DNA of 36,299 nucleotides from assembly GCA_023248635.1 (NCBI GenBank), contig JAHFED010000060.1, positions 1 to 36,299 on the forward strand, written 5' to 3'. The notes beneath the pieces were generated by a model. It was not told where the DNA came from. It made no database searches and saw only the letters and a list, made by a program, of their open reading frames with translations. The position numbers were made by a program, and so were the translations under genes. This document shows, in pieces, positions 1,389-36,299 of the stretch (positions are counted from its first letter, which is position 1; each line of letters starts with the position of its first letter). The stretch is from Myxococcales bacterium. GTDB lineage: Bacteria; Myxococcota; UBA727; VGSZ01.

Positions 1389-1404
1389 GCTGGCGGCATC
1401 AGGC

Positions 1405-1438
1405 ACCGCTCCGCGGTCGACGTTCAGCGAGATCGGGG
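1405..1438 (+). repeat. Fragment of the dispersed multi-hairpin element
   Basis: This 34-bp stretch matches the distal hairpin of the dispersed element: ACCGCTCCGCGGTCGA, one mismatch, then GTTCA. The following GTTCAGCGAGATCGGGG (1422-1438) is identical to the 3' end of the copy at 18537-18672. The rest of the element is absent. The remaining intergenic bases up to 1630 show no supportable gene; short reading frames there lack codon bias or a recognisable product. Confidence 0.55.
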
Positions 1439-17933: not shown

Positions 17934-18026
17934 GGCTTGTTGTACAGCAGGCCGGAGGCGACTGCAGTCAGACGTTGACGTCGACGGCGCGCGCTCCTAA
18001 CGAGCGCTTCGCCAGCAGGAGTGTTC

Positions 18027-18509
18027 ATGCAGATCGGGAAAAAGGCCGCCGTGGCCATCGACTACAAGCTCACCATCGAAGGCGGCATCGTCGTCGACGC
18101 GTCGGAGAAGGGGCAGCCCCTGTGGTACCTGCACGGCGCCAGCAACATCATCCCCGGCCTCGAGAAAGCCCTCGACGGCTTGAAGGCCGGTGACAAGAAG
18201 ACCGTCGTCGTCGGCCCGGCCGAGGGCTACGGCACCCGCGAAGAGGCCCGCGTGCACACGGTGCCCAAAACTAAGTTTCCGCCGGGCAACTACAGCGTCG
18301 GCGACCACGTCACAGCGACTGCTCCCGACGGCAACGAGATGGACGCCCGCATCTCGGCCATGGACGGCAAGAGTTACACCCTCGACTTCAACCATGAGCT
18401 GGCGGGCAAGACCCTGACCTTCGACATCGCCGTCGTCGAAGTCCGCGCCGCCACCAAAGACGAGATGACCCACGGACACGTGCACGGTCCCGGCGGCCAT
18501 CACCACTGA
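18027..18509 (+). CDS. slyD: FKBP-type peptidyl-prolyl isomerase, SlyD-like
   Basis: A 160-residue isomerase and chaperone of the SlyD subfamily. The FKBP core is split by the insert-in-flap domain: IGKKAAVAIDYKLTIEGGIVVDAS and LHGASNIIPGLEKALDGLKAGD, then the IF insert starting about GPAEGYGTREEARVHTVPKTKFP, then the returning strand NHELAGKTLTFDIAVVEVR. The C-terminus HGHVHGPGGHHH is the His-rich metal-binding tail typical of SlyD, shorter than the E. coli one, and suggests nickel or zinc binding. AGGAG lies seven bases before ATG 18027, favouring it over GTG 18021. Divergent from the aminopeptidase with 93 bp between. Confidence 0.92.
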   Translation: MQIGKKAAVAIDYKLTIEGGIVVDASEKGQPLWYLHGASNIIPGLEKALDGLKAGDKKTVVVGPAEGYGTREEARVHTVPKTKFPPGNYSVGDHVTATAPDGNEMDARISAMDGKSYTLDFNHELAGKTLTFDIAVVEVRAATKDEMTHGHVHGPGGHHH

Positions 18510-18536
18510 TCCCAAGTCCAGTTGAAGTTCGCTCAG

Positions 18537-18672
18537 GCGCGGGGAGCGCGCGCGAAGCGGAGTTGGGTGGGCCCCACCGTCCGGCTTCGCCGGCGTGGGG
18601 AGGGTCTGCATCAGACCCTCCAGGAAGAACATCTCCGACCTCGGTGAACGAAGTTCAGCGAGATCGGGGATG
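18537..18672 (+). repeat. Dispersed multi-hairpin element, copy C
   Basis: Diverged copy of the element at 33608-33816 and 36134-36299, with the modules in the same order. A GCGGAGTTGG segment comes first. Next is a GC hairpin (CCCCACCGTCCGG, CTTCG, CCGGCGTGGGG). Then comes a perfect 10-bp hairpin (GGAGGGTCTG, loop CAT, CAGACCCTCC), and last a hairpin (ATCTCCGACCTCGGTGAAC, GAA, GTTCAGCGAGATCGGGGAT). The stem of the second hairpin differs from the other copies on both arms in a compensating way. It lies just 3' of slyD, where it could also terminate transcription. Confidence 0.75.
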
Positions 18673-18715
18673 AGCCTCCGTCCCCTCCCGTCCTCCGGGT
18701 GAGGAAGACGTGCTC

Positions 18716-33505: not shown

Positions 33506-33607
33506 GTGCCGTGATCGCGGTGGGGCGCGACTTGAGTGACGAAAAACGGCAGAATGATTGCCGATCGACAACATTCGTCAGCGTGGTGATGTCGGTGCTG
33601 AGGTTCT

Positions 33608-33816
33608 GATCCCCGACGGCGATGAACTTCGACCGCGGAGCGGTCTCGTTCATCGCCGTCGGGGATGCTCTTCTGGGAGGTCTGGTGCAGACCTCCCCCC
33701 GCGCCGGCCGAGCCGGACGCGGGGCCCCCCACCAACTCCGCGTTCCGCGGGCGCGCTTCACGCGCATCTTTCCCATCTCGGAACGCGGTCGAACATCAAG
33801 CCGACGCGGGATGATT
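33608..33816 (-). repeat. Dispersed multi-hairpin element, copy A
   Basis: A string of stem-loops. A perfect 19-bp stem (33609-33627 with 33648-33666) encloses an inner hairpin (GACCGC, GGA, GCGGTC). A perfect 10-bp stem follows (GGGAGGTCTG, loop GTG, CAGACCTCCC; 33675-33697). Next is a GC hairpin (33697-33708 with 33712-33724) and a longer-range pair CCGCGTTCCG/CGGAACGCGG (33738-33788). The element is in reverse orientation relative to copies B and C. It lies between the pilin promoter and the beta-barrel gene. Apart from it, 33450-34020 contains no supported gene; 33816-33905 has CACCTTCACC-type repeats. Confidence 0.85.
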
Positions 33817-34020
33817 CGCCACCTTCACCTGCACCTTCACCGTCGCCCAATGCCGCCTTCTCCCGACATCGCCTTCTCGCTCACCTTCACCTTCACCCAC
33901 TGGGCCCTGGGACGCCGGGCAGTGGCGCGCCTCGGTCGAGGGCAAGCGGCGTTTTTCGTCGGACGACGAGAGGAAGGCCGGGCGCGTTGACGCCCCTTTC
34001 CGACGCCCCTACCTGAGCGC

Positions 34021-36087
34021 GTGCTCTCTATCGTGCTCGCCTTTGTCGTCGTCGCCCAGAGCGATCCCTCTCCAGCTTCGCCGCCCCCCCCTGAGGATCC
34101 CGCGGGTGAAGAGCCCGCCGCGGCCGCCGCCGTCGAAGCACCCGCCCTCGCGCCGGCCACCCTCGATCCCGCGATGCAGGCCGCCATCGAAGAGCTGGTG
34201 AACAAGAAGCTCGAAGAGAGACTGCAGGAGCGCAAGGCCGCCGGCTTCTTCGACGACGCCCCCCTGCCGGTCTCTCTGAGCTGGCGCGGCGATTTCTTCA
34301 CCAAGCTCCTGATCCGCAACAACCAGTCCGGCGGCTGCGTCAGCTACGGCAACCCAGCGCCCGAAGGCGACAACTTCTCTGGCGACAACGGCATCTGCAG
34401 CGAGCTCGGGCTCACCGTCACGGGCCGGGTCAGCGACCGCGTCGAGGTCGGCGCACGCATCCAGACCCGCTTTGGCGCGCAGTGGGCCGACTGGTTCGAA
34501 AACGGCGACGAGCGCGATCTGGCCGACGGCTCCGGCGAATCCCTGGGGCAGAACCACGCGGCCTATCTGCAGCTGCGCGGGCTTTACTTGAGAATCGCTC
34601 CGCCAATCCCTACCGTCACATCCATACACTTTGGTGCTAGTGATCTATCGATGTTCAATGCCTGGACGATCGGCAAGTCGCGCTACACTGAGAGGGACAA
34701 CGGCCGCGGCATCTTCGTCGACGGCGGCTTCGGTGATCCCCTCACCTACACGTTGGCCCGCGTCGCACTGCCCAAGCTCTTCGCCGGTCCAGGATACACC
34801 ACAGGAATCGCCGATCCGATCATCGAGAATCCCTTTTGGCAGCGCGATGCGGCCTGGGCCTACAAGCTCAAGAGCTCGTGGGATTGGTTCAGCGTCGAGC
34901 AGGTCACCAGCTACGTCGTCGACGAGGAAGCCGACCTCGACGATCCCGATGCCATCGGCTCCACCAACGCCATCGACGCCCGAGACGGCGCCGTCGTCAC
35001 CAACGCCCGCTACCAAAACGCCAACGCCACCCTCGAGGTGCGCTCCAACTTCGTCGACTGGCTCGGCCTCAAGGCCCTGGGCGCCTACTCCTACTCAAAG
35101 ACCGACGACCGCCTGGTGTTCAACTCCGTCAGCGGCGCCCAGGGCTTCACGCCCGTCCCCATGGGGGAGCACCAGGGCTACGCCGCCGTCGCCCGCCTCG
35201 AGCTTTTCGATCCCGCCGACATCGACGTCGATGTGGCCCTGGAATATTTCAACATCGGCCGCGACTGGGTGAGCGTCTTTGGCGCCCGGCGCGAGCAAGA
35301 CCTGCTGCTGACCGACGGCTTCGTCGACGGGCAGGTGGCCACCTTGAACGTCGCCAACGAATTCCAGGATTTCACCGAGCCCTTCTACGAGCCCATCATC
35401 GGCTGGCACGGCGGCACGGCCCTGGTCACCTGGTCGCCGGGCGCCCTGGAGCTCAGCGGTGAAGGCACGCTGATCGAATACAATACCGATACGGGTGAAG
35501 ATTCGTTGGACACCGCAAAGGTATATCCTGATTTCCTCTATACCGATGGCATGACCGACACGGAGCTGTTCACCTTTGCGAACACCAACGATCGCGGCCG
35601 CGATCCGCGCAGCGTCTACCACGAGTTCCAGAACCGGCGCACCGTCATCGGCGTCGCCAACGGCGCCTACACCCTCGATGTCTGGCGCAGCATCACCTTC
35701 CGGCTCAAGCACAAGACCATCTACGACACCGATCTGCGCAACCCCAGAATCACCGACGACGACGACTACGCCGGACTGCTGCTCTTCAACAAATTCTCGG
35801 TGGAAGCCCCGGTCACCGATGAGCTCTCCGCGGCGGTGGGCGGGCAGGTCGACACCTGGTTCGAGCAGCACCGCTCGGGCGAGGTCATCGCCGGCGTCGC
35901 CGACTTCCCCGACTACAACACGGTGCGCACCAAGGTCTTCAGCGACTTGCGCTACACGTTCGGCGGCGTCTCACTATGGTACCACATTGAATATCTGTGG
36001 AAGGACTTGGATGCCACGGACAATCGGCTCGATCAACGGAATCAAAACATCATTCGTTCCATCGCCATGGTGTCCGCCAGTTTTTAG
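34021..36087 (+). CDS. Outer-membrane beta-barrel (porin-like) protein
   Basis: A 688-residue protein. MLSIVLAFVVVAQS is a short hydrophobic leader without basic residues. It is followed by a Pro/Ala/Glu-rich linker, a short coiled coil (AIEELVNKKLEERLQERKAAGFFDD), and then long alternating aromatic/hydrophobic strands with polar loops. Examples are SLSWRGDFFTKLLIRNN, VEVGARIQTRFGAQWADWFE, ITFRLKHKTIYDTDL and VSLWYHIEYLWKDLD. The C-terminal residue is Phe (MVSASF), the usual signal for the BAM assembly machinery. The coiled coil before the barrel recalls trimeric porins with periplasmic stalks. GTG 34021 is the first start after an in-frame TGA (33988) and has no ribosome-binding site, so the start is uncertain. 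AT-rich codon patches occur near 34580-34690, 35470-35550 and the 3' end. Substrate unknown. Confidence 0.75.
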   Translation: MLSIVLAFVVVAQSDPSPASPPPPEDPAGEEPAAAAAVEAPALAPATLDPAMQAAIEELVNKKLEERLQERKAAGFFDDAPLPVSLSWRGDFFTKLLIRNNQSGGCVSYGNPAPEGDNFSGDNGICSELGLTVTGRVSDRVEVGARIQTRFGAQWADWFENGDERDLADGSGESLGQNHAAYLQLRGLYLRIAPPIPTVTSIHFGASDLSMFNAWTIGKSRYTERDNGRGIFVDGGFGDPLTYTLARVALPKLFAGPGYTTGIADPIIENPFWQRDAAWAYKLKSSWDWFSVEQVTSYVVDEEADLDDPDAIGSTNAIDARDGAVVTNARYQNANATLEVRSNFVDWLGLKALGAYSYSKTDDRLVFNSVSGAQGFTPVPMGEHQGYAAVARLELFDPADIDVDVALEYFNIGRDWVSVFGARREQDLLLTDGFVDGQVATLNVANEFQDFTEPFYEPIIGWHGGTALVTWSPGALELSGEGTLIEYNTDTGEDSLDTAKVYPDFLYTDGMTDTELFTFANTNDRGRDPRSVYHEFQNRRTVIGVANGAYTLDVWRSITFRLKHKTIYDTDLRNPRITDDDDYAGLLLFNKFSVEAPVTDELSAAVGGQVDTWFEQHRSGEVIAGVADFPDYNTVRTKVFSDLRYTFGGVSLWYHIEYLWKDLDATDNRLDQRNQNIIRSIAMVSASF

Positions 36088-36096
36088 TTCTGATGG

Positions 36097-36120
36097 TTCA
36101 AGACACGGGCGCGCCTTGAA
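36097..36120. repeat. Solo palindrome after the beta-barrel gene
   Basis: A 24-bp palindrome with arms TTCAAGACAC and GCGCCTTGAA around GGGC, preceded by TGATGG. It is a member of the TTCAAG family and shares ACACGGGCGCG with the copy at 4625. It starts 9 bp after the stop codon of the beta-barrel gene and could terminate its transcript. It is followed 13 bp later by dispersed element copy B. Confidence 0.75.
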
Positions 36121-36133
36121 GGATGCTCGGCGC

Positions 36134-36299
36134 GGTCATCCCGCGTCCGCTTGATGTTCGACCAGGTTCTGAGATGGGAAAGACGCGGGATGATGCGCGT
36201 GGAGCGCGCCCGCGGAACGCGGAGTTGGTGGGGGGCCCCGCGTCCGGCTCCGCCGGCGCGGGGGGAGGTCTGCACCAGACCTCCCAGAAGAGCATCCCC
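36134..36299 (+). repeat. Dispersed multi-hairpin element, copy B (cut by window end)
   Basis: Same modules as copy A in the opposite orientation. It opens with a 12-bp stem TCATCCCGCGTC/GACGCGGGATGA (36136-36147 with 36182-36193). CCGCGGAACGCGGAGTTGG follows, then the GC hairpin CCCCGCGTCCGG/CCGGCGCGGGG, then GGAGGTCTG-CAC-CAGACCTCC and AGAAGAGCATCCCC, which leads into the distal hairpin beyond the window. It carries about ten extra bases (GCGGGATGAT) relative to copy A. Confidence 0.85.

Follow-up and report, generated by a model that had tools for sequence, protein, structure and literature searches.

A covarying two-hairpin motif in dispersed repeats of a Myxococcales genome and behind stop codons of its relatives

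The DNA analysed here, a 36,299-nt stretch from a Myxococcales bacterium (the window), carries several copies of one array of stem-loops, which raises the question of what these repeats are and what their hairpins are for. The initial annotation had described three copies and one fragment. All were present where it had placed them, and their exact limits could now be set (Table 1). The letters that it had quoted for the stem pairs of a 10-bp hairpin were correct, and the window copies contain neither an open reading frame nor a transposase, as it had also stated. The observation of the repeats was confirmed, and its interpretation is partly supported, as detailed below. The TGA duplication of copy C at 18507-18509 is the stop codon of the ORF at 18021-18509. 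An ORF at 34021-36087, with a predicted outer-membrane-like product, lies between copies A and B, which are oppositely oriented.

Table 1. Coordinates of the repeats in the window and of transposase pieces elsewhere in the same genome (G000)
Feature	Position	Strand	Detail
MITE copy A, type 1	33610..33811	+	202 bp; without inner arm of right hairpin
Copy A left target-site duplication	33607..33609		TGA
Copy A right target-site duplication	33812..33814		TGA
Copy A left end and end hairpin	33610..33665	+	outer 19 bp perfectly palindromic via arm copying
Copy A conserved two-hairpin core (H2, H3, C-rich tail)	33673..33741	+	77.2 bits
Copy A core hairpin H2	33675..33697	+	GGGAGGTCTG-GTG-CAGACCTCCC
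Copy A core hairpin H3	33698..33723	+	CCCGCGCCGGC-CGA-GCCGGaCGCGGG
MITE copy B, type 1	36139..36299	-	cut at contig end; without left end
Copy B right-end duplication	36136-36138		TCA (read on +)
Copy B two-hairpin core	36219..36287	-	79.8 bits
MITE copy C, type 2	18510..18670	-	161 bp
Copy C target-site duplication	18507-18509 and 18671-18673		TGA
Copy C two-hairpin core	18557..18623	-	60.4 bits
Solitary left-end fragment (outer part)	about 1404..1436	-	sequence comparison by eye
Tn5/IS50-like IS4 transposase pieces	L131 1261-2649 (G000:C5); L132 (C59); L035 1740-2010 (C76)		PDB match to Tn5 transposase, 3.8e-30

The repeat family and its mobility

The initial annotation had suggested searching the genome for further copies. 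In G000, the genome to which the window belongs (6.53 Mb in 135 contigs), a pattern search allowing up to three mismatches recovered 213 left ends and 164 type-1 right ends, and the reversed control patterns gave 0 matches under the same rule. At the blast level there were at least 64 matches to the repeat, with 40 of 273 candidates scored, and a second type had about 50 matches. Many contigs of this genome break inside copies, and the right end of the window is one such break.

Type 1 is ~212 bp long and type 2 ~162 bp. The terminal inverted repeats of ~28 bp have related ends, which read inwards are TCCCCGATCTCGCTGAACTTCGACCGCG on the left and TCCCGCGTCCGCTTGATGTTCGACCGCG on the right of type 1, the type-2 right end being TCCCAAGTCCAGTTGAAGTTCG. 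Both type-1 ends double as the outer arms of end hairpins, and these end hairpins are specific to the G000 family. Between the ends lie two further hairpins, H2 and H3, followed by a C-rich tail. H2 is GGGAGGTCTG-GTG-CAGACCTCCC in type 1 and GGAGGGTCTG-ATG-CAGACCCTCC in type 2, and H3 is CCCGCGCCGGC-loop-GCCGGaCGCGGG in type 1 and CCCCAC.../...GTGGGG in type 2. Short non-coding units in high copy number, with terminal inverted repeats and target-site duplications, are what defines a MITE, and the repeats are best read, with the moderate confidence that we give to the explanation as a whole, as two subfamilies of one MITE.

Identical 3-mers were found on both flanks of 84 of the 97 intact copies (TGA 58, TCA 18, TAA 5, TTA 3), and together with the ends they support the earlier proposal of a non-autonomous mobile element. 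Among the 87 copies flanked by TNA twice, N was the same on both sides in 84 (Fisher p = 1.7e-20). The target consensus is C-TNA-G. Nested insertions reveal the empty site GGAGGGTCTGATGCAGACCCTCC; at L018, for example, GGAGGGTC-TGA-TGCAGACCCTCC became GGAGGGTC-TGA-[element]-TGA-TGCAGACCCTCC. A TNA target whose repeat is exclusively 3 bp long is the rule in the IS1031 group, which belongs to the IS5 family (PMC12016507), and the G000 copies follow it, which points to an IS1031-type enzyme. Most simply, the MITE would have been moved in trans by a DDE transposase of this type that has since been lost or was not assembled. Members of the IS1031 subgroup such as ISLrh, and their MITEs, share with the G000 copies the 3-bp TNA repeat, TGA among the targets and short inverted ends (PMC12016507). 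In contrast to that subgroup, the ends here start with TCCC... rather than GAACCTG..., the outer ends are hairpin halves, and no accompanying transposase was found.

Profile searches of G000 with PF01609 and PF01797 gave no transposase with matching ends; the only two PF01609 matches were both Tn5-like. The Y1 transposase RAYT (PF01797) had no match in G000 and was found in 5 of 14 control genomes, and a RAYT/REP origin was rejected on this ground. REP/BIME elements are likewise extragenic palindromes that occur in many copies close to the 3' ends of genes (PMC3733652), but they come with a RAYT and with a GTAG/CGTC tag at the hairpin base, whereas inspection of the G000 hairpin bases gave no GTAG tag and the copies have a target duplication. 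No autonomous copy was found among the unpaired MITE ends of G000, which were truncations, nested copies, or intron or IS insertions. Solo end-hairpin elements, considered as possible building blocks, did not turn up in the G000 search, and a search for plasmid carriage gave nothing convincing.

Copies sit mostly at gene 3' ends. The spacers that hold them were convergent in 27 cases, tandem in 26 and divergent in only 6, so that divergent spacers are avoided. Of 44 left sides, 21 lay exactly on a stop codon, as did 3 of 36 right sides. Noncoding insertions fell at stops in 30 of 71 cases (28 of 61 without nested ones). Among the noncoding CTNAG sites available, 38 of 111 are at stops, so that the excess is only ~1.3-fold. 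A special stop-codon targeting mechanism was therefore set aside, as the CTNAG preference and the loss of coding insertions mostly account for the pattern. At stop codons the core was in sense orientation 24:6. This bias may be an effect of target orientation, because TGA outnumbers TCA overall, 58:18.

Four G000 loci (L026, L010, L027 and L173) provide tandem arrays of whole or partial units with one common TNA, and insertions of copies into the H2 loop of other copies, which suggest that the loop TGATG is a preferred target. At L044 (G000:C69, 1640-1830), the right end of a type-2 copy carries several tandem ~35-bp units, GACGCGCCAGCGTCTTGAACATCCAAACTTCAA.

The two-hairpin core in the phylum

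Weak matches in relatives consisted of H2, H3 and the tail, without MITE ends. This core comprises two adjacent hairpins, GAGGGTCTG-loop-CAGACCCTC followed by CCCC-variable stem-GGGG, and an unpaired tail, CCCCC(A/T)CCC(A/G)A. A covariance model of the core was built, refined and run on 195 genomes of the phylum, a search of relatives that the initial annotation had proposed. Six genomes were positive, and the model found no core in the remaining 189. Besides G000 these were G001 and G002 from the same genus, G003 from the same family, G005 from the same order and G032 from another family, which makes five further genomes with the core.

Across 25 diverse core copies, 93.6% of the cells were paired and 13 of the 21 pairs showed two-sided changes. 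The two-sided cells numbered 58, whereas shuffling gave 17 and slid controls no more than 8. In a tree-aware test by our own R-scape-like method, with a parsimony null on a FastTree tree of 51 copies, four column pairs reached significance, and each of them is a base pair of the predicted structure. The covariation is confined to the inner two hairpins and shows between the types, but chiefly between genomes. The earlier proposal of a structured family with covariation therefore stands for these two hairpins across genomes, but not on the ground originally given, as three window copies cannot show covariation. Five of six cores had fold z-scores of -3.8 to -4.9, and one core from G005 folded poorly, with a z of -1.5. 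The window had no match in Rfam at the gathering threshold, and at six loci with cores, with or without MITE ends, a search with E up to 1 gave only chance matches elsewhere. In the alignment (A5) the core has no U-tract, and its tail is C-rich instead.

The core occurs naked, that is, without MITE ends, in G003, G005 and G032, with only about 5-35 such copies per genome. In 16 of the 20 inspected, the core started between -6 and +8 nt from a same-strand stop codon, a placement expected by chance for ~2% per noncoding position and strand. All of the six best-scoring cores of G003 started 4-8 nt behind a stop, weaker ones being less clearly placed; in G005, 5 of 5 started 4-8 nt behind a same-strand stop, though coding support for the stop at L219 is weak; and in G032, 5 of 9 started within -6 to +2 of a stop. 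Most of the inspected naked cores are sense-strand hairpins close to or downstream of a stop codon, as intrinsic terminators are. One host gene, recognised from translated ends, is what we take to be rpsK, with rpoA as the gene after it. Flanking duplications around naked cores were mostly absent, with one exception: at L219 (G005, about 1470-1650) the core is flanked by exact 26-bp direct repeats that include the CTAG at which the upstream frame stops. At L230 (G032:C428, contig positions 24722-24942), three cores stand in tandem with a period of 78 bp.

In G001 and G002 the core is carried by another MITE, whose ends are CAGGCTGNGGTGAA and whose 4-bp flanks are CTAG-like (CTAG...CTAG at L202 and CTAC...CTAC at L190). 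In G000 every sampled core, including those at 20 further loci, was within a copy of the TNA MITE. In the open-access text that we searched, we found no description of the conserved core or of its capture by two MITE families.

The role of the core

The reading that we favour, with moderate confidence, is that a conserved pair of 3'-end hairpins was captured by two MITE families and that the pair has a role in termination or in protecting mRNA 3' ends. As part of an RNA, the core would act at transcript 3' ends as a double-hairpin terminator without U-tract, as a structure that protects the mRNA, or as both; the transcript would be ended or shielded by a pair of highly stable hairpins just past the stop codon. 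A MITE with the captured core could insert at stop codons without doing much damage, as the TNA duplication would re-create a TGA stop at the insertion site. In sense orientation the core would be harmless or useful to a gene at its stop codon, which may be why the MITE spread. The position in the rpsK-rpoA spacer, where a strong terminator would be odd, and the small number of naked copies argue against a strong general terminator, and the absence of a U-tract also counts against the favoured reading.

Two known systems resemble the core. Intrinsic terminators without U-tract also consist of two hairpins <15 nt apart and at most 20 nt from the stop (PMC8355165), but they are unrelated hairpins, whereas the core is one homologous repeated family. 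SPRITE of Streptococcus pneumoniae is a small dispersed terminator-like repeat, enriched at gene 3' ends and often clustered with other repeats (PMC3049150). In contrast to the core, it has a single long hairpin with a U-rich tract and AAAA/TTTT at the ends, and no duplication has been established for it; the core has two GC-rich hairpins and a C-rich tail, is conserved across genera and occurs with and without MITE ends. A bolder proposal, which we make tentatively, is a new class of structured RNA: a stacked pair of hairpins directly behind stops, followed by a single-stranded tail that is conserved and rich in C. Two unrelated MITE families would have picked it up independently, and in one species it would have been scattered to ~200 sites, where many genes would have received a preformed 3' end with the stop preserved by the TNA duplication. 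A covarying and undescribed 3'-end hairpin motif, tied to the transposons that disperse it, would show how mobile elements can supply transcript ends in nature.

The main rival, which we consider unlikely, is that the core serves mobility as DNA, either as a hairpin bound by the transposase or as an extruded cruciform or single strand, that this role accounts for the covariation, and that the location at 3' ends reflects tolerated insertions. In keeping with such a role, the elements that carry the core are unrelated in their ends and in their duplications, which are TNA in G000 but CTAG-like in G001 and G002; moreover, the core reaches a high copy number only inside a MITE, and the loops of its hairpins have themselves taken insertions of further copies. 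However, two types of ends and duplications imply two transposases, both of which would need one common internal structure, and the naked cores of G003 and G005 have no inverted ends, mostly lack a flanking duplication and stand in sense behind stops. Moreover, L126 and L112 are without much of the core and still have correct or near-correct TNA flanks, so the core is inessential for transposition. The core-poor derivatives and the naked copies weaken this rival.

Stem changes, passengers and later insertions

Paired changes between the window copies had been taken as evidence of selection on the fold. Among 42 type-1 copies, the 47 distinct stem variants were all one-sided, 35 of them pair-breaking. 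The left hairpins of L009 and L174 are perfectly palindromic and were made from opposite arms, the left hairpin of copy A is half converted, and the right hairpin of L176 is inverted. With no two-sided variants within type 1 and with arm copying in several copies, the compensatory argument from three copies fails as stated. Some of the arm matching is homogenisation by template switching, which gives 'compensatory' changes without selection. Template switching between hairpin arms is a published mechanism (PMC8794818, PMC8604942), and these copies make it visible in this family. That it produced all paired changes during replication, without any selection on structure, is quite improbable, as it leaves unexplained why layout, loops and the unpaired tail were kept across genera and why 13 pairs over two helices covary at 94% pairing; in the absence of selection, most changes would be expected to be unpaired, which is what type 1 shows. 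Paired stem changes among a few repeat copies can thus be the product of hairpin template switching, and in this family real covariation appeared only across genera.

Three Tn5-like transposase pieces were present in G000, the third located by protein search in addition to the two PF01609 matches. All are fused to MITE sequence, broken or rearranged, and lie inside copies near one point of the GC hairpin. Related transposases came mostly from Myxococcota records. The fusion to MITE ends at first seemed decisive for a Tn5-like transposase as the MITE's own enzyme, and it would also suit a derivation of the MITE from this IS4-family element. This origin is very improbable, as the Tn5-like element has its own 19-bp ends, CTCATGAT(TGA/CCG)TCACATCT, which are similar in its relatives, differ from the MITE ends and adjoin the middle of the MITE. 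Tn5-type elements also produce 9-bp duplications. Because the pieces carry their own ends, they are passengers in the MITE, and their transposase was rejected as its enzyme.

Ordinary GC-rich terminator stems that resemble each other by composition, a likeness that the initial annotation had itself named as a possible refutation, deserve hardly any credit: double hairpins without U-tract behind stops are common in GC-rich genomes (PMC8355165), but the precise ends and duplications, the 0 control matches, the specific primary motif with its tail and the 189 of 195 negative phylum genomes stand against this account, which as far as the MITE goes is already refuted.

On the minus strand of L086 (G000:C14, about 310-530), a group II intron, matched by RF02001 of Rfam at 90.5 bits, starts with GTGCGCCCGGCATGGGTGC... 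immediately behind the H3 hairpin in one of the MITE copies. Class C group II introns insert behind hairpins, and the position of this intron fits that habit. At L123 (C50), a similar intron-like start lies behind the left hairpin.
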